IMG/VR virus record: IMGVR_UViG_3300032048_000024
Span: 1 to 20,634 of that record
DNA from: a virus
DNA: 20,634 bases
Reading direction: 5' to 3' (one strand)
Shown: positions 169 through 17,743 of the stretch, one piece after another
Layout: each line of letters starts with the position of its first letter
Position numbering within the stretch: the stretch's first letter is position 1
Position numbers and translations under genes: made by a program
The notes under the pieces: model-generated
The model's input: the letters and a program-made list of their open reading frames with translations, nothing else
What the model was told of the DNA's origin: nothing
Database searches by the model: none

Positions 169-477
169 ATGGCGTTGCTTGAAGATATAGTTGATTTTTG
201 TAAAAAGGAATTGAGCATCCCGTCAGATATTTTGGTGTCTGTTGAGCGGGATGATTTATCAGAAGATAATGTTAAAGGTTGGACTACTGATTCTGCTGAA
301 GATGATGAGTACGATATTGAAATAGATGCACGTCTTAGTTTCAAAGAAACTATCTTAACGGTGTGCCATGAGATGGTACACGTTCTCCAATTACACGAAA
401 ACCGTGAGCTTGATGAAAATGAAGCTTACGAAAAAGAAGAGTTCCTATATAAAAATTATATAAATAACTCTCAGTAG
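169..477 (+). CDS. Small HExxH zinc-metallopeptidase-like protein
   Basis: A 102-residue protein, or 106 if the ATG at 157 is used. Residues 67-71 read HEMVH within TVCHEMVHVLQLHE, a classic zincin HExxH helix in which the two His bind zinc and the Glu is catalytic. A Glu-rich stretch follows, and NEAYEKE at 84-90 could supply the third zinc ligand, as in other minimal ExxH..E peptidases. The first 60 residues are acidic and precede the active-site helix. There is no signal peptide or membrane span, so it should act in the cytoplasm. The substrate is unknown. It lies directly downstream of an unrecognised gene, and its last codons contain the late promoter for the next gene. The zinc-binding role is inferred from the motif alone; loss of protease activity is possible. 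Confidence 0.7.
   Translation: MALLEDIVDFCKKELSIPSDILVSVERDDLSEDNVKGWTTDSAEDDEYDIEIDARLSFKETILTVCHEMVHVLQLHENRELDENEAYEKEEFLYKNYINNSQ
459..466 (+). promoter_or_regulatory. T4-type late promoter octamer TATAAATA
   Basis: Exact match to the T4 late -10 element, inside the last codons of the metallopeptidase-like gene and 63 bp ahead of the ATG at 530. T4 late promoters have no -35 element and are read by the gp55 sigma factor with gp33 and the sliding clamp. Initiation would be expected near 472, giving a leader of about 58 nt that includes the AAAAGGAAAAG ribosome site. Confidence 0.55.
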
Positions 478-1903: not shown

Positions 1904-2293
1904 ATGCCTAAACGTAAAATGACAGAAGCACAACGAGCGGCTGCATCAAAAAATTTAGCTAAAGCGAGAGCGGCTAAAAAGCCAGCTAAATATAAAACTG
2001 TTGCAGAAAGTGTTCAAGCACTTGATGATGACCATGGATTATCTATGGTAAATGTCAAGAAATATATTAAAGCTACTACAGAAAAAATGGCAACATTACG
2101 ACGTGGTATTCAAACTGGTGAGAGAGGAGCACTTGCTAAGTATGAAGCAGCAAGAGTTTATAGAACTCATTGTCAAACATACTTACGTGAAGGTGTGTGG
2201 TCATTAGACTTTTATGGTGAGAATGAAGAGAAGCCAGTCTATTGGTCAACACTTGTTCCAGCTTATGATAAAGATGGATATCAGAAAGTATAA
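1904..2293 (+). CDS. Basic small protein upstream of gp33, conserved-looking, unknown function
   Basis: A 129-residue protein whose first 30 residues are very basic and Ala/Lys-rich (MPKRKMTEAQRAAASKNLAK), similar to the flexible tails of nucleic-acid-binding proteins. The middle (about 50-75) looks helical. The C-terminal part is aromatic-rich (LREGVWSLDFYGENEEKPVYW). Proteins of this type lie beside gene 33 in marine T4-like phages, and in T4 the neighbouring slot holds dsbA, a double-strand DNA-binding protein; I do not see clear homology to DsbA. The AAGGAATTAG ribosome site precedes the ATG, and the stop overlaps the gp33 start (TAATG). A DNA- or RNA-binding role in late transcription or replication is inferred from composition and position only. 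Confidence 0.65.
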   Translation: MPKRKMTEAQRAAASKNLAKARAAKKPAKYKTVAESVQALDDDHGLSMVNVKKYIKATTEKMATLRRGIQTGERGALAKYEAARVYRTHCQTYLREGVWSLDFYGENEEKPVYWSTLVPAYDKDGYQKV

Positions 2294-2523
2294 TGGAGGA
2301 CATCAATAAGAAAGCATTCTCAAATTTAGTTGAGAATTATGTTCGTACACATAGAGGTTGTCCATACATTGATGCAGTAATTCAAGTGTGTGAGGACAAT
2401 GAAATTGACCTTAGAGATAGTAAGAAACTTATCTCAAAAGAGATTATACAACACGTAGAGTTCGAAGCAAAAGAACTCAACTTATTACAAGGTGGTAATC
2501 CTACATATGTATTACCTATATGA
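2293..2523 (+). CDS. 33: gp33-like late-transcription co-activator
   Basis: A 76-residue protein. In T4, gp33 bridges the RNA polymerase beta flap and the sliding clamp gp45, and so enables clamp-dependent activation of late promoters. Here the block YIDAVIQVCEDNEIDLRDSK, followed by a helical segment, matches the small helical gp33 core found in marine T4-like phages. It is shorter than T4 gp33 (112 residues). The hydrophobic C-terminus, NPTYVLPI, is where a clamp-contacting tail would be expected. The gene lies immediately before gene 59, as in T4. Its ATG overlaps the previous stop, and GGAGG lies just after the start codon, which suggests coupled reinitiation. The stop also overlaps the gp59 start. 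Identification rests on motif and gene order. Confidence 0.75.
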   Translation: MEDINKKAFSNLVENYVRTHRGCPYIDAVIQVCEDNEIDLRDSKKLISKEIIQHVEFEAKELNLLQGGNPTYVLPI

Positions 2524-4030: not shown

Positions 4031-4054
4031 AAGCCCTCTTCGGAGGGCTTTTTT
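4031..4054 (+). terminator. Rho-independent terminator after gene 32 with a UUCG loop
   Basis: AAGCCCTC (4031-4038) pairs perfectly with GAGGGCTT (4043-4050) around a TTCG tetraloop, followed by a T run to 4054. It ends the + strand 33-59-32 transcript. On the opposite strand no U-run follows the hairpin, so it should act mainly in one direction, although it sits exactly between two converging genes. Confidence 0.92.
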
Positions 4055-5942
4055 ATTCACGAATGTGCATGTAAGTGTCACCATAACCACCTGCTTCATA
4101 ATTAACAACAGTTGTATTAATATGTGTTTGACCGGATTCAGCCTGAATTGCTCTATTTAATGCTTTCTGATCTTGAGTTCTTATATAAGCTGCTTGCATT
4201 TCTTCACTCTCTCTAAACTTTTTGACTTGCGAACCAACCCAAGCATTTTTACCAAATTGTGCATAATGAGTTGTAGAGCCAGGTTTACTAGGGTCTAAAC
4301 CCCAACGAACACCAGTATCAGGATTTATTAAGTTGTTTGATAATTTAGTAATCTCTCTTAATCCTGCAGCATAATGATGGGTAAGTGCACTTTCACTTAA
4401 ACCTCCAACAGCACCTGTTTCACCAATCTCAATTCCAAATATCTTTCTAGCCCAGTCAGGTATCATACCTTTAACCCAATTTGCTATTCTACCTGGTATA
4501 GCAGTAATCCATTCCCATACGCCAGTACGGTAGTCTGCACTTGTAAATAAACCTCGTATAAATTCTATGGCACCAGATATTAAATGGAAAGGGGCGGCAA
4601 CCAATTTACGAATTAAATCCATGAAACTAAATTCTTGTATTGCTCTAAGAACATCACCTGTTGCACTTTGACCTTTAATAATAGTTCCATCCTTATTTGA
4701 TTTTAAACCGAAGGCTTTCTTAAGAAGCCATACCGCTACATTTTTAACTACATCTGCTAAACCACCAACTATATAACCTAAAAGACCACCAGTAGCTTCA
4801 CCTATTATAGTCATTAAAGTACTTCCTTCTTTTTCTGATTCTTTTTTACCAGATTTAAATCCTTCAAAAAGACCAAATAGTAATGTTACTGGCCATAAAA
4901 TTCTTCCTAGAAATTTTACAATACCAAGATTCTTAAAGACATCAAAGGTTGATTTCATACCTCTCCAGGTAGCTTTACCCATCCATTTAGATATACCAGC
5001 ACTAAAATTAGTAATAGGTTTAAATATTTTACCTATTCTTCGTGTTAATAAACCAGCATATCCAGCAGACATCCATGCTGCTCTAACAGGTAATGACCCA
5101 CGAGGTCCAGGTCTATTACCAAGTGGCTTACCATCAACACCTAAACCAATAGAATTAAATGCTTTCAGTCTTATATTAGACATTCTAGTCTTTATACCTT
5201 CAACAAGACCAGCCCATCCAAATGCTTTCCATTGACCATCTACTTTTCTATATATTGGTTTACCATTTTTATCATAGCCAGCCCATTTCATAACACTACC
5301 TACAAATTTATTCCAACCAGCAACAACAGCGGGTATTACACCCTTACTCCATACTTTAATGCCCGCTAAAACTTGAACAACTTCCTCATGCCATTTACGT
5401 ATTGCTAAATAAGCACCGCCTATAAGTAATACCGTAGCTATTAGAATTGGAATTTTAAATTTTTTCCAAGCATCTCTTAATATATCTAAGCCTTCTATTT
5501 TCTTTTCAGCTCTGAGTTTCAAACCTTCAGCCCAGCCCATGAAACTAAATTTTCTTTTTCCAGTTTCTAAATCTCTTTCACGTTGGTCTCTTCTATCTTG
5601 TAGTCGCCAAATTCTATCTCTATTAGCTTGCTTATTAGTTAGATTCATCGTGGCAGTTTCAGCACTCAACATCATTTTTTGAACTTTACCTTTAGTAGTA
5701 TCTTTATGCAATGCATCAGTAAAGGTTTTTGCTTGACCAGCTAAATAACGACGTTTAAAGTCAGTAGCATCATCAATAATTAAACTCTGATTCTCTTCAT
5801 TAACTTTCTGAGATGACTGTATCATCTCCTGACGCTTAGCTTCTTCAGACTCTCTCAGTCTATCGCGCGTACTAAGTTGATTCTGCTTTCGCAGAAGTTG
5901 GACTACTTGTTGCAGTAATGTTTCTTGAGTTTTTTTAGCCAT
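4053..5942 (-). CDS. Tail tape measure protein (gp29-like position)
   Basis: A 629-residue protein encoded straight after the frameshifting tail chaperone, the standard place for a tape measure. The first 130 residues are charged and helical (coiled-coil-like, with LLQQVVQLLRKQNQL and runs of Glu/Arg/Lys). Residues 164-182 form a strong membrane span (IPILIATVLLIGGAYLAI), and further hydrophobic, Gly-rich segments lie at about 343-360 and 376-396, as in tape measures that insert into the host inner membrane. The length is near that of T4 gp29 (590). At about 0.15 nm per residue it predicts a tail of roughly 94 nm. The start ATG shares one base with the stop of the chaperone extension. I see no lytic or peptidase motif. 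Sequence identity to gp29 is not evident, so the call rests on context, length and composition. Confidence 0.7.
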   Translation of the reverse strand: MAKKTQETLLQQVVQLLRKQNQLSTRDRLRESEEAKRQEMIQSSQKVNEENQSLIIDDATDFKRRYLAGQAKTFTDALHKDTTKGKVQKMMLSAETATMNLTNKQANRDRIWRLQDRRDQRERDLETGKRKFSFMGWAEGLKLRAEKKIEGLDILRDAWKKFKIPILIATVLLIGGAYLAIRKWHEEVVQVLAGIKVWSKGVIPAVVAGWNKFVGSVMKWAGYDKNGKPIYRKVDGQWKAFGWAGLVEGIKTRMSNIRLKAFNSIGLGVDGKPLGNRPGPRGSLPVRAAWMSAGYAGLLTRRIGKIFKPITNFSAGISKWMGKATWRGMKSTFDVFKNLGIVKFLGRILWPVTLLFGLFEGFKSGKKESEKEGSTLMTIIGEATGGLLGYIVGGLADVVKNVAVWLLKKAFGLKSNKDGTIIKGQSATGDVLRAIQEFSFMDLIRKLVAAPFHLISGAIEFIRGLFTSADYRTGVWEWITAIPGRIANWVKGMIPDWARKIFGIEIGETGAVGGLSESALTHHYAAGLREITKLSNNLINPDTGVRWGLDPSKPGSTTHYAQFGKNAWVGSQVKKFRESEEMQAAYIRTQDQKALNRAIQAESGQTHINTTVVNYEAGGYGDTYMHIRE

Positions 5943-6880: not shown

Positions 6881-7576
6881 TTAAACTAATCTCTTAAACG
6901 TATCTAACGTGTCCTTTCCTATCGATAACATGTGTCCTACCACATCTCCGAATCCTTCTATTAATCCAACACTTCTAAAATTATCATATTCCCAAGTAAT
7001 AGTTAATTCCATTAAATCTTCTGACCCAGAACTTAATTCAATTGCACCAACTTGAATAGGATATGCATTTTCTAATTTGATTGTATAGCCTGGAATAACA
7101 TTATTACCTTGAGATAATTGTTGAATAGTTATATCACTAGTATACTCATCTTTATAAAATGCTTTATAGTGTCTACGTGATGTATCGATAATCATCTCTT
7201 GCCACATATCAAAATATTTTTTTATGTAATAGTCATTCGTTAATAGAAATGTCATAGATACTTCATCAGTCATTGCTGAATATGGTTTCTTTGCTAAGTG
7301 ATGATTATGTGAAGCTTCAGTTGTTGTTATACGTTTGCCTGGAAGTGAAACAGACCGACATAACAAAAACAAATCTCTTGGGTCTTGTATAAAATCTCCA
7401 AGATTTATACCATCACCTGATATTAAATTACTTAATAAAGTAGCTGGATTAAATTTTAATAAACTATTCATACCTTTTGAAGGATGAGATACATATACAG
7501 CATATCTATTACCACGTGCTATACCACCACGACGATTAATCGTTGACTTAATTGAATCTATACTAGTTGGTAACAT
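6881..7576 (-). CDS. 54: gp54-like tail-tube initiator (tail-tube fold)
   Basis: A 231-residue protein with the organisation of myovirus tube-fold proteins: an N-terminal NRYAVYVSHPSKG strand, CRSVSLPGKRITTTEASHNH (the 'primarily beta, SLPG' turn common to gp19/gp54 types), the long beta strands of DEVSMTFLLTNDYYIKKYFD, and a closing AYPIQVGAIELSSGS plus DLMELTITWEYDNF sheet. T4 gp54 has 320 residues and polymerises on gp48 to start the tube. A compact gp54 fits this gene, and gp48 is the first gene of the divergent operon. A tail-tube paralogue is the alternative. The start ATG shares one base with the previous stop, and the chaperone gene follows. Confidence 0.6.
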   Translation of the reverse strand: MLPTSIDSIKSTINRRGGIARGNRYAVYVSHPSKGMNSLLKFNPATLLSNLISGDGINLGDFIQDPRDLFLLCRSVSLPGKRITTTEASHNHHLAKKPYSAMTDEVSMTFLLTNDYYIKKYFDMWQEMIIDTSRRHYKAFYKDEYTSDITIQQLSQGNNVIPGYTIKLENAYPIQVGAIELSSGSEDLMELTITWEYDNFRSVGLIEGFGDVVGHMLSIGKDTLDTFKRLV

Positions 7577-8160
7577 TATCTATATTGTCTCCTTGAGTCT
7601 GCCCAAACAGCTCTTTCTCCTCGTTTCTTAAATGCAGCTGTTTTTAAAAATATTGCTATGTTCCATTCAGAAGCTTCAACCTTCATTATTTTTGAAGTCA
7701 TGTGCTTTCCTAAATAGTGTTTAAAGCATGGTCTAAAGTATTTATAGTTCGCAGTAGCTTTTAACATATTATATGTAATTCTAAATCTAGTTGTTGCATT
7801 ATATTTTTGATTAGTTACAGCAGCACTTAAATTATCTAAAAATAAAGCACGAATTTTAGGTGGTAAGTAATGTAAGTTAATACCAAAAAAACCACCTGGT
7901 GCAGGCCCAACAACAATCACTAATGGGAATGTATCATAGTATGGCAAAATTGCTTTAGTCTTTGGATTATAGGTATACATTACCATATCACCAATAAAAG
8001 GTCTGGCCTTTGGTTTTAATCTATCATCTTTAAGTATGCCTTTACCTAATGGTCCAAGCTCTCTGGCTTTCTTTTGAAACCATATTGCTGCTTCTTTTGA
8101 ACGAGCTTGTATTCCTTTACGGAATGCTTCTGATTCTAACTTGTCAAATAGACTAGCCAC
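7576..8160 (-). CDS. 2: gp2-like protein (putative DNA end protector / head completion)
   Basis: A 194-residue soluble protein beginning MASLFDKLESEAFRKGIQAR, basic and helical up to about residue 50, followed by a compact core with MVMYTYNPKTKAILPYYDTF and VVGPAPGGFFGINLHYLPP. The second half is rich in Lys/Arg and aromatics (TRFRITYNMLK, YFRPCFKHYLGKHM). Marine T4-like phages carry this protein beside gene 4 and it is commonly annotated as gp2, the virion protein that in T4 protects packaged DNA ends from RecBCD. T4 gene order 2-4-53 supports the placement. I am not certain of the name, because I cannot align it to T4 gp2 from memory. It overlaps the membrane protein gene by 8 bp and the next gene by one base. 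Confidence 0.5.
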   Translation of the reverse strand: MASLFDKLESEAFRKGIQARSKEAAIWFQKKARELGPLGKGILKDDRLKPKARPFIGDMVMYTYNPKTKAILPYYDTFPLVIVVGPAPGGFFGINLHYLPPKIRALFLDNLSAAVTNQKYNATTRFRITYNMLKATANYKYFRPCFKHYLGKHMTSKIMKVEASEWNIAIFLKTAAFKKRGERAVWADSRRQYR

Positions 8161-8344
8161 TAAACGTCTCCATTAATTGAGGACCAAAGGTAACCATTAT
8201 ATATGCTATGATGCCGATGCCTAATAAACCTATTAACATCCATTTCATTTTAAAATCATTTACTAACATTTGAAAACCTATTATCTCGTTACCCAATATG
8301 CGTACTGATAGTTCAAGCTTACCTTCGTCTTCCTTGTTATCCAT
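8153..8344 (-). CDS. Small single-span membrane protein
   Basis: A 63-residue protein: an acidic, cytoplasmic-looking N-terminus (MDNKEDEGKLELSVRILGNE), an amphipathic middle, then one strong membrane span at about residues 36-53 (MLIGLLGIGIIAYIMVTF) preceded by Lys residues, and a short tail. There is no cleavage site, so it is probably a membrane-anchored protein. It lies between head-completion and tail genes and overlaps the next gene by eight bases, so it belongs to the structural operon. Its ATG follows a TATAAATA octamer by five bases, and there is almost no ribosome site (only AGG). Function is unknown; roles in membrane-associated assembly, or as an antiholin-like protein, are guesses. 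Confidence 0.65.
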   Translation of the reverse strand: MDNKEDEGKLELSVRILGNEIIGFQMLVNDFKMKWMLIGLLGIGIIAYIMVTFGPQLMETFSG

Positions 8345-8349
8345 ACCTA

Positions 8350-8357
8350 TATTTATA
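8350..8357 (-). promoter_or_regulatory. Late promoter octamer TATAAATA just before the membrane-protein gene
   Basis: Exact late -10 octamer on the - strand, overlapping the gp4 stop codon (its TAA is part of the octamer). Only five bases (TAGGT) separate it from the ATG at 8344. T4 late start sites lie about six bases after the octamer, so the mRNA would begin at or beside the start codon. Confidence 0.5.
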
Positions 8358-8850
8358 CTCTTTTACCAAGAGTTTTCCATATTCTTCTGCCTGTTTTTGT
8401 TTTGGATGCTTTGAACCCCATAGTCATTGTACGTATACCCATAGCTTCAAGTTCTTTCTCAGTCCATATTTGAAATTCATAACCACGTTTATCACAATAT
8501 TTCTTAGCATACTCCCACTTAGAAATATTCTTCATATAGGTCAATGCTTCTTTTAATTGTTTTCTTTTAGGTGGTACAGTTTGAGATGATGGTTTTATTT
8601 CAACAAGGAGGGTACGACCTGTGTCTGTTCGTATAGTAAGGTCAACAAAATAGCGATGCATCTTACGGTCGGTTGCACATATATATGGTATAACAGTCTC
8701 TTCAGACTGCCACCACTTAACCCATGATGCTTTATCTAAATATCTAAATGCATTTCTTTCCCATAAAGACCTATAATGTATCATATCTAGGTTACCTTTG
8801 TATTTTTCAGGATGTTTTGGCCTCCAAGAGCCAGAATAATTCTTTTTCAT
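8353..8850 (-). CDS. 4: gp4-like head completion protein
   Basis: A 165-residue protein from the ATG at 8850. A longer reading from 8895 adds a hydrophobic MFVYYLFIRFF stretch that crosses the promoter region and is unlikely. The start MKKNYSGSWRPKHPEKYKG and the YRSLWERNAFRYLD block are typical of T4 gp4, which acts after DNA packaging so that tails can join. HRYFVDLTIRTDTGRTLLVEIKP carries the D...E-x-K pattern of a TnsA/PD-(D/E)xK-type nuclease core (D in VDLTI, then VEIK), with a downstream helix of Lys residues. T4 gp4 has about 150 residues. It is the first gene of the - strand operon and is divergent from gp48, close to gp53 as in T4. Confidence 0.85.
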   Translation of the reverse strand: MKKNYSGSWRPKHPEKYKGNLDMIHYRSLWERNAFRYLDKASWVKWWQSEETVIPYICATDRKMHRYFVDLTIRTDTGRTLLVEIKPSSQTVPPKRKQLKEALTYMKNISKWEYAKKYCDKRGYEFQIWTEKELEAMGIRTMTMGFKASKTKTGRRIWKTLGKRV

Positions 8851-8855
8851 GTGTA

Positions 8856-8863
8856 TATTTATA
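8856..8863 (-). promoter_or_regulatory. Late promoter octamer TATAAATA before gene 4
   Basis: Exact octamer on the - strand with five bases (TACAC) between it and the gp4 ATG at 8850. No Shine-Dalgarno sequence lies between. It is head-to-head with the octamer at 8872-8879. Confidence 0.55.
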
Positions 8864-8871
8864 AAGAAACG

Positions 8872-8879
8872 TATAAATA
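8872..8879 (+). promoter_or_regulatory. Late promoter octamer TATAAATA for the + strand baseplate operon
   Basis: Exact octamer on the + strand, 26 bases before the gp48 ATG. A full AAAGGAG ribosome site at 8894-8900 fits between the expected start site (about 8885) and the gene. It should drive the long 48-53-27-5-25-6-7-8 operon. Confidence 0.7.
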
Positions 8880-8905
8880 AGTAATATACAAACAAAGGAG
8901 CATGT

Positions 8906-10039
8906 ATGCCATTACAAGATTTTGGTCATAGGACCAGATTAAATTTCGAAGGTGATAGATTCGAACATTGGAAATATCCAGATACTGTAGGTAATGACGC
9001 TTGGCAGGATGATATTAATTTCAATAGTAATCAGTCTAGTGAATACGCTAAAAGGCGTATGAATAATATATCTGAAACAACAAATGAGCCATATGTTTTC
9101 TTTGAATTTATGAAGATAGATGAAGACTTACAAAAAGTTAGAAAAAGATATGTTGACTCTTTACAATCAGGTTTTGAAACAGCTAAAGATAAATTAAAAG
9201 CAGTAAAGGCTACGACAGCCGCAGCATCAAAACGGTCATTTGAAGAAAATGTGGTAGCTGGACATCATGCGACTCAAAGAGTAGCTGGCGATATTGTGTC
9301 AGACCTTAACTCGGCTAAAGCTGGTATAGGACCTTGGGCTAAATCTTTAATTCTAGAATATACAACACCCGCTGCAAGAAAATATACAGGTTCAATTGCA
9401 TTATATATGCCAACCGCAATTGCAGTAAGTGACCAAATGTTATATAATGAAGATACACGAAAATTTGCTGCAGGTTTAAATGAACTATTAACTACTGGTG
9501 CAGATGCTTTTCAAAATAAAGCTGTTGCAGGTGGAAAGGCTGTAATATCGGCAATTGCTGGTGGTTTAGGTCATGTTGGTGGTAAAGGTATAATGGGTAT
9601 GTTAGCTGGTTATGGTGCAGGTGATATTATTGCAGCTGAGGTACAAAGGTCAAAAGGTTCTCTTTTAAATCCTAATGAATATATAGCATACTCATCAACT
9701 CAATTAAGAAGCTTTACATTTAATTGGATATTTCTACCAGATTCAGAATCAGAATCAGACCAAGCAACAGGTATTATTAAATTTTTTAGAAAATCTGCAC
9801 ATGCTAAAAAGAATGACCAAATTACAATAACAGTTCCTGACCATTGTGTTATATCATTCCATGGAGCAAAAGATATGATTCAATTACCTCCATGTGTTGT
9901 TGAGAATGTAAGTGTAACATATAATCCAAATGTATCTTCATTCTTTCGACATAATAATTCACCGGTTGAAATTGGATTAGCTGTAACACTTAAAGAAATG
10001 ATTCCACTTTATGTAGATGATGTGGAGGCAGGATACTAA
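8906..10039 (+). CDS. 48: gp48-like baseplate tail-tube cap
   Basis: A 377-residue protein (T4 gp48 has 364). In T4, gp48 sits on the hub dome and, with gp54, primes tail-tube growth. The C-terminal third has the tube-like beta fold: YSSTQLRSFTFNWIFLPDSE, GIIKFFRKSAH, then PPCVVENVSVTYNPN and the closing EIGLAVTLKEMIPLYVDDV strand. The T4 counterpart has the same RxFxFxFxFLPRSxxE pattern. The middle (about 85-235) is Ala/Gly-rich and helical, with AGGLGHVGGKGIMGMLAGYG as a flexible hydrophobic stretch. It starts after a strong AAAGGAG site, and its stop shares a base with the gp53 ATG. Confidence 0.75.
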   Translation: MPLQDFGHRTRLNFEGDRFEHWKYPDTVGNDAWQDDINFNSNQSSEYAKRRMNNISETTNEPYVFFEFMKIDEDLQKVRKRYVDSLQSGFETAKDKLKAVKATTAAASKRSFEENVVAGHHATQRVAGDIVSDLNSAKAGIGPWAKSLILEYTTPAARKYTGSIALYMPTAIAVSDQMLYNEDTRKFAAGLNELLTTGADAFQNKAVAGGKAVISAIAGGLGHVGGKGIMGMLAGYGAGDIIAAEVQRSKGSLLNPNEYIAYSSTQLRSFTFNWIFLPDSESESDQATGIIKFFRKSAHAKKNDQITITVPDHCVISFHGAKDMIQLPPCVVENVSVTYNPNVSSFFRHNNSPVEIGLAVTLKEMIPLYVDDVEAGY

Positions 10040-12741: not shown

Positions 12742-12749
12742 TATAAATA
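12742..12749 (+). promoter_or_regulatory. Late promoter octamer TATAAATA before gene 25
   Basis: Exact octamer starting at the base after the gp5 stop codon and only six bases (GAATAT) before the gp25 ATG. There is no Shine-Dalgarno sequence in this gap. It would give an internal late start within the baseplate operon, possibly leaderless. Confidence 0.5.
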
Positions 12750-12755
12750 GAATAT

Positions 12756-13154
12756 ATGGCAACAATAGCACGACAAGATACGTATAAAGATTTAGATTTT
12801 ACTTTTAAGCAAAATCCTAATACCAATGACGTTGGAATAAAGAGGAATAATGATTCAATAAAACAAAGTGTCTTAAATATATTAAGAACGAATCATGGAG
12901 AGAGACCATTTAATTTTGATTTTGGTGCCAATTTAAGAAGATATTTATTTGAAAATATGTCTAATATTACAGCAGCACAAATGTCTACTTCTATTAATAC
13001 TGCTTTAAGAAATTATGAACCAAGATTAGAAGTATTAAATACAAATATACAATCAAAACCACAAGATAATGAAGTGTATATAACAGTAACCGGTAGAGTT
13101 TTATCTAGTAATGAGGTATTAGATATAACAACCACAATAGAGAGATTACGATAA
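12756..13154 (+). CDS. 25: gp25 baseplate wedge subunit
   Basis: A 132-residue protein, the same size as T4 gp25. gp25 sits in the wedge core beside gp6 and contacts the first sheath ring; TssE of type VI secretion is its homologue. The signature is clear: TNHGERPFNFDFGANLRRYLFE (45-66) and the conserved EPR triad in LRNYEPRLEVL (residues 88-90). The protein starts MATIARQDTYKDLDFTF, typical of marine T4-like phages. Upstream is TATAAATA plus six bases and no ribosome site. Its stop overlaps the gp6 ATG (TAATG). Confidence 0.95.
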   Translation: MATIARQDTYKDLDFTFKQNPNTNDVGIKRNNDSIKQSVLNILRTNHGERPFNFDFGANLRRYLFENMSNITAAQMSTSINTALRNYEPRLEVLNTNIQSKPQDNEVYITVTGRVLSSNEVLDITTTIERLR

Positions 13155-15037: not shown

Positions 15038-16233
15038 TGGCTACTTTAGGTAAATATAATATATCATCATACATAGATGATTTAATACCTGACCACGTAG
15101 AGAGCTCATATCCTGATTTAGTTGCATTTCTTAAAGTATATGCTTTATATTTAGAACGTACTAATAAATCTGGGTTCTATCTTAATGCTCTTGATATCCA
15201 AAGAGATATCGACCATGTAGAAGAAACCCTTCTTACAGAACTACAAAATGAAATTGGTATTGCTGTACCAAGAGACTTTGCTACAGACCCAAGAATGTTT
15301 TATAAGAGGCTTGTTGAGTTCTATAGGAGTAGAGGTACACCAGAATCAATCACATCATTCTTTCGTGTTATATACGATGATGAAGTAGAAACATATTTTC
15401 CATTTGTAGATTTACTTAATCCATCAGATGGAGATTGGACAGATCAAACTACAGATATTATAGCAAATCAATCTAACTATACAGCTTGGAATGTGTTTAC
15501 AATATCTGGTACACCAACAGTAGTTAGCGGTAATAATGATGCAAGTAATCCTGCATTCTTTGATGATGATATAGTATTTGTTAATGATGTATATCAAACT
15601 CCAGATACAGATTATGTTGAGGAAGTATATTCAGATACAACAACTAAATATAGATTAACATTTACAAGTGCATTATCAGATGGCGATGTGGTTAAGACAT
15701 ATCCTAAGGGTTTATTTACAACTAATCAAGGATTCTTATCAGATAAAAAATATTTACAAGACTCTTATTACTATCAACAGTTCTCATATGTTATACGTAC
15801 TGGTAAGAACATAGCAGATTGGAAGAATGCATTTACAAGATTAATTCACCCAGCTGGATTTAAGTTCTTTGGTGAAATATCAATATTAATTAAGTTATTA
15901 ACTTCTGGTATGCCATCACAATTATATGGTTGGTTACCACCAGCTGGTAAAATTACTATTAACTTAGCTCAAGAACAAATTGGTCCAGTAGCTTTTTATA
16001 GAACTAATTATATAGAGAAAACTTATACACATATACCATTTACTACAACTGGAACTTATAATATTGGTTCGGGTGGCGGCAGAATAGGTATGTGGAATCA
16101 TTGGGAGAACATGAAGTTCAGATATTTAGGCCCAAATAGCGATTTCGCTCACTATACAGTGCAAGATAGTATAAATAACAATATAGGATTACAATTCGGA
16201 ATCCAACACCGAAATCAAATAGTGATTTCATAA
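15037..16233 (+). CDS. 7: Short gp7-like baseplate wedge protein
   Basis: A 398-residue protein between gp6 and gp8, the T4 position of gp7 (1032 residues). It corresponds only to the C-terminal part of T4 gp7. SSYPDLVAFLKVYALYLER (23-41), FYLNALDIQRDID, DPRMFYKRLVEFYRSRGTPESITSFFRVIYDDEVE (84-118) and later DWKNAFTRLIHPAGFKFFGEISILIKL line up with the T4 segments around SNFEAFCEAYIQYLS, RNIYLNADKRDAVARFFESR, FLFKVLYNEEVEIE and WKSDVIRFVHPVGFGFIAITLL. Between them lies a beta insert of about 130 residues (PDTDYVEEVYSD and neighbours). The T4 N-terminal domains, which reach toward the baseplate edge, are absent, so the wedge should be smaller than in T4. Confidence 0.8.
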   Translation: MATLGKYNISSYIDDLIPDHVESSYPDLVAFLKVYALYLERTNKSGFYLNALDIQRDIDHVEETLLTELQNEIGIAVPRDFATDPRMFYKRLVEFYRSRGTPESITSFFRVIYDDEVETYFPFVDLLNPSDGDWTDQTTDIIANQSNYTAWNVFTISGTPTVVSGNNDASNPAFFDDDIVFVNDVYQTPDTDYVEEVYSDTTTKYRLTFTSALSDGDVVKTYPKGLFTTNQGFLSDKKYLQDSYYYQQFSYVIRTGKNIADWKNAFTRLIHPAGFKFFGEISILIKLLTSGMPSQLYGWLPPAGKITINLAQEQIGPVAFYRTNYIEKTYTHIPFTTTGTYNIGSGGGRIGMWNHWENMKFRYLGPNSDFAHYTVQDSINNNIGLQFGIQHRNQIVIS

Positions 16234-16252
16234 ATAAAACAGAGGAAATAAA

Positions 16253-17743
16253 ATGGCAGCAATTATAACTAGCAAATTTAGATTAGATACAACTAATAAA
16301 TTCTTGGCTAGTCTTGGTGACAACACATTCTACATGGCCTTGGGACGGCCTAACGCGTGGACTGATGATACGGTTCCAACAACCCCATATGAAAATGACT
16401 ATACAAGTAATACTTTATGGGAAAACATGTTTGCCATGAAAAAGATTGCTAGTACAGACATTATTCATTGTTCACCAAGGAACCTTTGGGTTTCTGGTAC
16501 AACTTATGTAGAGTATGACGATCAAGACACTAACATAGAAAGCAAAGTATACTTTGTTATCTCAGATAACAATAACGTATACATTTGCTTAAAGGCAGGA
16601 ACAGGAGCAAGCACAACAAACCCAGACGTTTCACCGGGTGGTGTAGTAACAACAGGAGTTATTAACTTCTCAGCAACAGATGGTTACATATGGAAATATA
16701 TGTATACAGTCCCAACAACTGATGTGACAAAGTTTTTAACATCATCATTCATACCAACAAGACATATTAAAGTTACACCTCCAGGAGGTTCTGACACAGC
16801 ATTGGTTAATCAATATAGTGTGCAGACTAATGCAGTTGATGGTGCAATATATAATATGAAGATAACTACTGCGGGAACTGGATATGCTAATGGTGCTACC
16901 GAAGCTATCCTTACAATCGTAGGTGATGGCACAGGTGCTACAGCTACGGCCGTAGTAGCGGGTGGAGCTATTACAGGTATTACAATGACAGCCCCAGGTT
17001 CAGGATATACTCACGCTACTGTAACAGTAGCAGGTACAGGTACACTTGGTGCAGTAAGACCAGTGATTGGTCCTCCAGGTGGATTCGGTGCAGACTCAAC
17101 CAATGACTTACGTTCACATTACGTAACAATTAATACTACATTTACGGGTGATGAGTCAGGTAGTATTCCAGATTCAAATGACTTTAGACAATTGGCATTA
17201 ATTAAGAATCCAATTGAAGAAGCCAATGATGGAATAACCGCAGGGTCATTTGTAGCAAATAACTTTTATAAAATTTTAACAACTGGCTCTACTGATTATA
17301 CTTTAATTGGTGCAGCCGATAGTTATGTTGGTACAGTATTTAAAGCATCAGGGGTTGGTTCAGGCTCTGGTACTGCAGCTCAGATTGCAGAAGCTAATAC
17401 GTATAATACATGTAAAAGTTTAACAGTTGCTACAGGAGCAGCATTCCCAGCAGACCAAATAATCCAAGGTACTATAACAGGTGCTTTAGGTCAAGTAGTG
17501 GAATATGATTCAAGTAATGGTATTATATATTATACTCAAAATGAAGCTACAGGCTTTGTTACATTTACTGATTCAGATTATATTCGTGAGAATGGTACAG
17601 CAATTGCAGGACAAGATTGTACAGCAGTAGGAGTTCCTTTAATTAACCATCATTCAGGTGATGTAATGTTTGTAGAAAATAGAACAGCAACATCTAGAGG
17701 TGATGGTCAAGTAGAGACAGTAAGATTAGTAATCGCATTTTAA
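16253..17743 (+). CDS. 8: gp8 baseplate wedge protein with added beta modules
   Basis: A 496-residue protein (T4 gp8 has 334). T4 gp8 is a dimer in each wedge bound to gp7/gp10. The gp8 frame is clear: AAIITSKFRLDTTNKFLASL, FYMALGRPNAWTDD, LWENMFAMKKIASTDIIHCS, DGYIWKYMYTVPTTDVTKFL, DFRQLALIKNPIEEA and the closing HHSGDVMFVENRTA...VETVRLVIAF, each with a T4 counterpart. The extra length comes from insertions: a GTGYANG/GSGYTHA double repeat (about 195-270), a module with GSTDYTLIGAADSYVGTVFKASG (about 333-375), and a GTITGALGQVVEY module (about 398-445) like that in gp53. GAGG precedes the ATG. The gene follows gp7 after 19 bases. Confidence 0.9.
   Translation: MAAIITSKFRLDTTNKFLASLGDNTFYMALGRPNAWTDDTVPTTPYENDYTSNTLWENMFAMKKIASTDIIHCSPRNLWVSGTTYVEYDDQDTNIESKVYFVISDNNNVYICLKAGTGASTTNPDVSPGGVVTTGVINFSATDGYIWKYMYTVPTTDVTKFLTSSFIPTRHIKVTPPGGSDTALVNQYSVQTNAVDGAIYNMKITTAGTGYANGATEAILTIVGDGTGATATAVVAGGAITGITMTAPGSGYTHATVTVAGTGTLGAVRPVIGPPGGFGADSTNDLRSHYVTINTTFTGDESGSIPDSNDFRQLALIKNPIEEANDGITAGSFVANNFYKILTTGSTDYTLIGAADSYVGTVFKASGVGSGSGTAAQIAEANTYNTCKSLTVATGAAFPADQIIQGTITGALGQVVEYDSSNGIIYYTQNEATGFVTFTDSDYIRENGTAIAGQDCTAVGVPLINHHSGDVMFVENRTATSRGDGQVETVRLVIAF

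Follow-up and report, generated by a model that had tools for sequence, protein, structure and literature searches.

Late promoters and leaderless messages in related systems

Textbooks use phage T4 to explain late transcription and depict its messages with leaders and ribosome sites. Its late promoters, served by gp55, gp33 and gp45, carry the octamer TATAAATA in front of virion genes, and both characters are shared by the phage DNA described here, which also has a gp33 homolog. T4 differs in that most of its octamers are separated from the ATG by 14-35 nt that include a Shine-Dalgarno (SD) sequence, and none was found at 5-6 nt. The related cyanophages S-PM2, Syn9 and P-SSM2 share the motif NATAAATA, while their leaders are mostly 14-40 nt long and only 0-1 tight start (ATAAATA 5-6 nt before ATG) exists per genome. 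Start sites of Syn9 were reportedly studied by Doron et al. in 2016.

The cI gene of phage lambda is a single repressor gene with a sigma-70 promoter, not a late virion gene set. Its mRNA, likewise from a phage, has AUG at its very 5' end and lacks an SD, and it is named as the naturally leaderless standard in PMC4965119. The same source describes E. coli messages (rcnR, iscR, ptrB) in which a 5'-terminal AUG (5'-uAUG) is the start of a short uORF that precedes an SD-led gene; such 5'-uAUGs can bind 70S ribosomes, and some of them affect the downstream gene (PMC4965119). Late promoters have been described in cyanophages (PMC2984593, PMC3037559), and their detection in pelagimyophages was reported as unsuccessful (PMC7029224). 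A passing remark in PMC5312081 holds that phage transcripts are often leaderless, and in PMC9004378 the word "leaderless" occurs only within a reference title. The literature search gave no paper visibly linking leaderless mRNA with T4-type late promoters.

Gene content of the window

The window, which means the whole stretch of DNA analysed, is a 20.6-kb virus record, and T4 gene numbers were attached to its genes from PHROG descriptions and synteny. Families of gp59, gp32, gp33, gp26, gp51, gp2, gp4, tail tube, gp48, gp53, gp5, gp25 and gp6 were revealed by PHROGs, as in a T4-type myovirus. The features used below are as follows.

2293..2523, + strand: gp33 homolog, late promoter transcription co-activator (PHROG 254, E 6.9e-17)
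7576..8160, - strand: gp2, DNA end protector, GTG start (PHROG 429)
8153..8344, - strand: 63-aa ORF with hydrophobic segment, predicted leaderless, overlapping gp2 start (no PHROG or Pfam match)
8345..8349, - strand: 63-aa ORF spacer TAGGT, 5 nt; predicted transcription start 8344
8350..8357, - strand: 63-aa ORF late octamer TATAAATA, overlapping gp4 stop (36/36 distinct junctions)
8353..8850, - strand: gp4, head closure/completion, predicted leaderless (PHROG 218, E 6.5e-47)
8851..8855, - strand: gp4 spacer TACAC, 5 nt; predicted transcription start 8850, the A of ATG
8856..8863, - strand: gp4 late octamer TATAAATA, kept in 58/58 usable relatives
8872..8879, + strand: gp48 late octamer TATAAATA, normal spacing (contrast), 26 nt to ATG 8906
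8894..8900, + strand: gp48 SD AAAGGAG (contrast); relatives have an AAGGA-like run in this position
8906..10039, + strand: gp48, baseplate tail tube cap, leadered (PHROG 230)
12742..12749, + strand: gp25 late octamer TATAAATA; spacer GAATAT, 6 nt; ATG 12756
12756..13154, + strand: gp25, baseplate wedge, predicted leaderless or with 1-nt leader (PHROG 261)

By PHROG assignment, octamers of the window precede the late (virion) genes gp4, gp25 and gp48. The gp55 late sigma factor had no match in the window or in its 51- and 59-kb relatives G001 and G002, all of which are fragments, and this counts against leaderless late messages; gp55 was present in the cultured Pelagibacter phage HTVC008M and in G010 and G011 by the same search. 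One scan of genome contigs for hosts of the window clade gave only two distant MAG contigs, from Rhodospirillales and Opitutia.

Some further features were observed. The 629-aa ORF at 4053-5942 (-) had no PHROG or accepted Pfam match, and sits where HTVC008M has an annotated tape measure. Another TATAAATA at 459-466 (+) lies 63 nt upstream of a 250-aa ORF (530-1282, +), which has an N-terminus that is signal-peptide-like by eye and no PHROG or Pfam match. At 16229-16253 (+), CATAAATA lies 16 nt upstream of the ATG of ORF 16253 and comes with a GAGGAA run, as a short-leadered variant promoter.

Placement of the octamer

A preliminary description of this DNA had placed TATAAATA five bases before the ATG of both gp4 and the 63-aa ORF, as a design repeated at gp25, next to a gp48 with normal spacing and a full ribosome site. 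All of this agreed with the window: the two 5-nt spacers are exact, gp25 has the octamer 6 nt before its ATG, and gp48 has a 26-nt gap containing AAAGGAG. The octamers of gp4 and gp48 lie back to back on opposite strands, 8 bp apart (8856-8879), one of the leaderless type and one with a normal leader.

That AT-rich DNA places TATAAATA near start codons by chance has a practically negligible probability. The number of octamers is indeed ordinary, with eight found, 5.1 expected and 15/100 shuffles reaching eight; their placement is not, since three window genes have an octamer 5-6 nt before the ATG, whereas the 55 other arrangements of the same letters average 0.02 such genes and never exceed one. 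The reversed pattern gave one match in the window and the true pattern two. This placement, together with conservation in relatives, ruled out chance.

A second explanation is that the octamers serve genes further down (gp2, tail tube, hub). In that case gp4, the 63-aa ORF and gp25 would be translated off longer messages that arise by read-through, with genome compaction as the cause of the tight spacing. It fits the octamers that overlap or touch a preceding stop codon: the gp4 TAA (8355-8353) is contained in the octamer 8357-8350 (-), and the gp25 octamer follows immediately on the TGA that ends the gene before it. No co-directional gene precedes gp4, however; gp4 heads an operon that runs leftward, away from the divergent gp48, which makes the octamer in front of it the natural gp4 promoter. 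On all the evidence, including that given below, this explanation seems unlikely.

Spacing in relatives

Sixty gp4 rows had at least 67% identity. Two of them were left out, L053 because its sequence has nothing before the ATG and L006 because it had been read from an incorrect ATG further upstream. NATAAATA-N5-ATG was found in 58/58 of the usable relatives, 55 with TATAAATA and three with GATAAATA, and the five spacer bases varied while their number was fixed. The 63-aa ORF likewise kept octamer-N5-ATG in 18/18 distinct upstreams, so the outcome that the preliminary description had named as a refutation, an ATG kept with the octamer lost, did not occur in the clade. These relatives are not independent, and the tight spacing of gp4 is lost at 53% identity or less (17/17 rows, L065-L081), both of which count against the leaderless reading; the contigs of these 17 rows carried gp2 with ATAAATA at 5-7 nt in 16 cases.

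For gp25, the spacing among 44 distinct upstreams was 6 nt in 33, 5 nt in seven and 4 nt in one. In the same phages gp48 keeps 26-33 nt, a point against the second explanation, and compaction does not account for a fixed 5-nt spacer of varying bases or for the pyrimidine before the ATG.

The distances from octamer to ATG, whose comparison across genes and relatives had been proposed as a check, were bimodal. In a set of 82 sequences (the window, phage C48C1 and 80 relatives), 45 + 20 of the distances from TATAAATA to the next ORF start were 5-6 nt and 40 were 25-27 nt; the gp4 locus is over-represented there because the set was fetched via gp4. Nine control octamers were mostly low, with shifted peaks where they overlapped the true octamer or its conserved flank. 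An alternative gp4 start at the upstream in-frame TTG (8895) was rejected, having no SD and an upstream frame that differs among relatives.

Predicted position of the transcription start

In T4 numbering the first octamer base is -13, and the octamer lies roughly one turn of the helix ahead of the start (PMC2988020). With the octamer at -13 to -6, +1 is the sixth base behind it, which at spacing 5 is the A of the ATG; for gp25, with spacing 6, the predicted +1 is one base before this A. In promoters with normal leaders, position 6 after the octamer was richer in purines than positions 5 and 7 (76% in T4 and RB49, n=46; 78% in cyanophage-type promoters, n=139), and C was nearly absent from it (2% and 1%, respectively).

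At tight starts the base before the ATG points the same way. With spacing 5 it was a pyrimidine in 54/54 distinct 14-mers, both T and C and no purine, and with spacing 6 the pyrimidine shifted along with the ATG in 18/19 distinct sequences, while gp2 starts without an adjacent octamer had A before the start codon in 32/34. Such counts are not independent events because the sequences are related. In HTVC008M alone the -1 pyrimidine was found at 6/7 tight starts and 26/55 others (p=0.10, not significant), a point against the leaderless reading. The three predicted 5' ends showed no notable folding (z 0.22, -0.77 and 0.39).

Transcription might instead begin a few bases upstream or downstream of the T4 position, giving very short leaders (1-4 nt) or loss of the first AUG. 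The gp25 spacing of 6 and some gp2 spacings of 7 would allow this, and the mapping of T4 start sites relied in part on primer extension, a method that does not tell initiation from processing (PMC2988020). Both the purine maximum that independent promoters show at position 6 and the shift of the pyrimidine together with the ATG argue against it, and such a displaced start is considered very unlikely. The pyrimidine before the ATG, and the purine maximum found equally far from the octamer in phages with normal leaders, support a start at the ATG, in line with the earlier suggestion that the message would begin at the start codon.

Ribosome sites and start codons

The best anti-SD duplex between -20 and -4 was +1.5 kcal/mol for gp4, -2.4 for the 63-aa ORF and +0.2 for gp25. 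These tight genes average -0.2, compared with -4.4 for the 15 window genes that lack an octamer and -7.0 for two long-leader genes. The earlier statement that gp4 and the 63-aa ORF have no proper SD is thus borne out. In the first 50 kb of HTVC008M (annotated starts, 62/63 used), seven tight starts had a mean of -1.2 kcal/mol and differed from the other 55 (p=0.012).

An SD-like run of -4 kcal/mol or below did occur at some tight genes (HTVC008M 2/8, G010 1/8, G013 1/5, G011 1/7, G002 1/2). These six runs in five genomes are located at the edge of the octamer or a little before it, so that the predicted message does not include them. They could serve read-through RNA, which favours the octamers acting for downstream genes and counts against leaderless initiation.

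It is known that AUG is strongly preferred as the start codon of leaderless mRNA. All starts at 4-7 nt were ATG, though ATG, GTG or TTG was allowed. Start-codon choice was uninformative in HTVC008M because all 62 annotated starts examined are ATG.

The slot behind gp4 and access to gp2

Among gp2 junctions from rows of at least 56% identity, 78/79 rows gave 35 distinct junctions; the ATG stands at 5 nt in 34 of these and at 6 nt in one, and the base preceding it is always T or C. The 79th row (L235), outside the first count solely through its longer ORF, has TATAAATA-AGTGT-ATG and encodes a different protein, making 36/36 distinct junctions with an ATG at 5-6 nt. This 108-aa ORF (L235:1564-1903) has a hydrophobic end, starts 5 nt after the octamer and is unrelated to the 63-aa ORF, which itself had no tblastn match in the phage collection.

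The 35 junctions were occupied by gp2 itself in three cases, by a mini-ORF of 6-14 codons in 13 and by an ORF of 62-65 aa in 19. Eight of the 13 mini-ORFs ended overlapping the gp2 start codon, four at +8 and one at +25, and the 62-65-aa ORFs ended at +8 of gp2 in 19/19. An AUG at 5-6 nt was found in 12/13 distinct long gp2 leaders vs 0/14 gp48 leaders. Directly behind the octamer the gp2 start is ATG, and elsewhere 13/34 gp2 starts are GTG.

Where the slot holds a mini-ORF, the distance from octamer to gp2 is 25-33 nt, in some cases with an SD-like run, as would suit an octamer acting for gp2; even where a mini-ORF alone follows, however, the 5'-end AUG is kept. The earlier suggestion that these octamers act mainly for genes further down is thus partly borne out as well: behind gp4 a 5'-terminal AUG is kept even as the start of a mini-ORF ending at gp2. 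An AUG kept while the peptide behind it changes fits a role in ribosome loading. The best reading of the junctions is that the slot conserves a 5'-terminal AUG, and gp2 is probably reached by coupling, i.e. termination and restart from the upstream ORF. The mini-ORFs resemble the uORFs of E. coli 5'-uAUG messages; unlike those, the phage uAUG is conserved across phages, and its changing uORFs stop overlapping or just inside the next gene.

Distribution among T4-type phages

With genes called by a crude script, tight starts numbered three in the window, three in G001, two in G002, eight in HTVC008M, eight in G010, five in G013 and seven in G011; one each was found in P-HM2, P-SSM2 and S-CRM01, and none in C48C1, Syn9, S-PM2, S-WAM1, T4, RB49, XG4 and Cr30, nor at 5-6 nt in P10VF. 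In the G011 permutation control 1/55 reached the exact-octamer count. Octamers of T4, RB49 and ten other isolates are mostly 14-40 nt upstream of the ATG. The eight tight genes of HTVC008M, all coinciding with GenBank starts, are listed below.

6280: 2OG oxygenase
7562: CsgF
16007: tape measure
18916: gp2
19456: gp48
31132: gp25
49760: baseplate initiator
142360: transcriptional regulator

The tight design is thus found in pelagimyophages and most marine T4-like contigs examined, as judged from sequence, and is absent from T4, RB49 and the examined cyanophages. HTVC008M and pelagimyophage contigs share it at gp2, gp25, gp48 and others, and differ in that gp4 is not tight and the set of tight genes is another one. 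Genes not obviously of the virion also occur 5 nt behind a late octamer (HTVC008M 6280 and 7562; G010 124525 and 141998), namely a 2OG oxygenase, CsgF, a CsgF-like protein and a small PHROG 17776 protein.

In the gp4 tree (11/53 rows dropped; three of the rows labelled "not", L057, L058 and L064, being contigs cut at gp4) the design label clustered, with five label changes needed, and a single clade was not rejected (p-AU 0.396).

Ribosomal protein bS21 was found in HTVC008M (91228-91431) and in three of four other pelagimyophage records searched (G010, G011 and G012), the fourth being a 52-kb fragment, and in 0/11 isolates without the design and 0/5 window-clade fragments searched, a pattern confounded by kinship. 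For the bS21 of HTVC008M, incorporation into 70S ribosomes of E. coli has been reported (PMC9723584). A translational switch late in infection, in which leaderless virion genes were selected and pelagimyophage bS21 would make modified ribosomes favouring 5'-terminal AUGs over SD-led host messages, is conceivable and decidedly improbable.

Proposed mechanism and its meaning

It is likely that T4-type late promoters of these phages start messages at or within 1-2 nt of the ATG, and that gp4, the slot of the 63-aa ORF and gp25 are translated leaderless, as the preliminary description had suggested for some late genes. Conserved tight spacing, no SD at normal distance, an initiator-like -1 base and the gp33 homolog are the observations behind this; transcript 5' ends, leaderless initiation and coupling to gp2 are what we infer from them. 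The octamers would be recognised by host RNA polymerase with phage gp55, gp33 and gp45, and the first transcribed base would be the A of the start codon or one no more than 1-2 nt away. Messages of gp4, of the 63-aa ORF or other slot occupant and of gp25 would be leaderless, with ribosomes recognising the 5'-terminal AUG and no SD needed; behind gp4, this AUG may also load ribosomes that terminate at, then restart on, the gp2 start.

Both the promoter and the kind of message are known, and their lineage-wide combination is new. A promoter fused with the start codon offers a simple possible reason for the unsuccessful late-promoter detection in pelagimyophages (PMC7029224). The leaderless design can be tested because HTVC008M and its host are grown in culture, and the tight spacing suggests a usable rule for annotating start codons in uncultured marine phages. 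If true, this would be a natural, repeated case of leaderless translation of phage structural proteins, with promoter and start codon fused.
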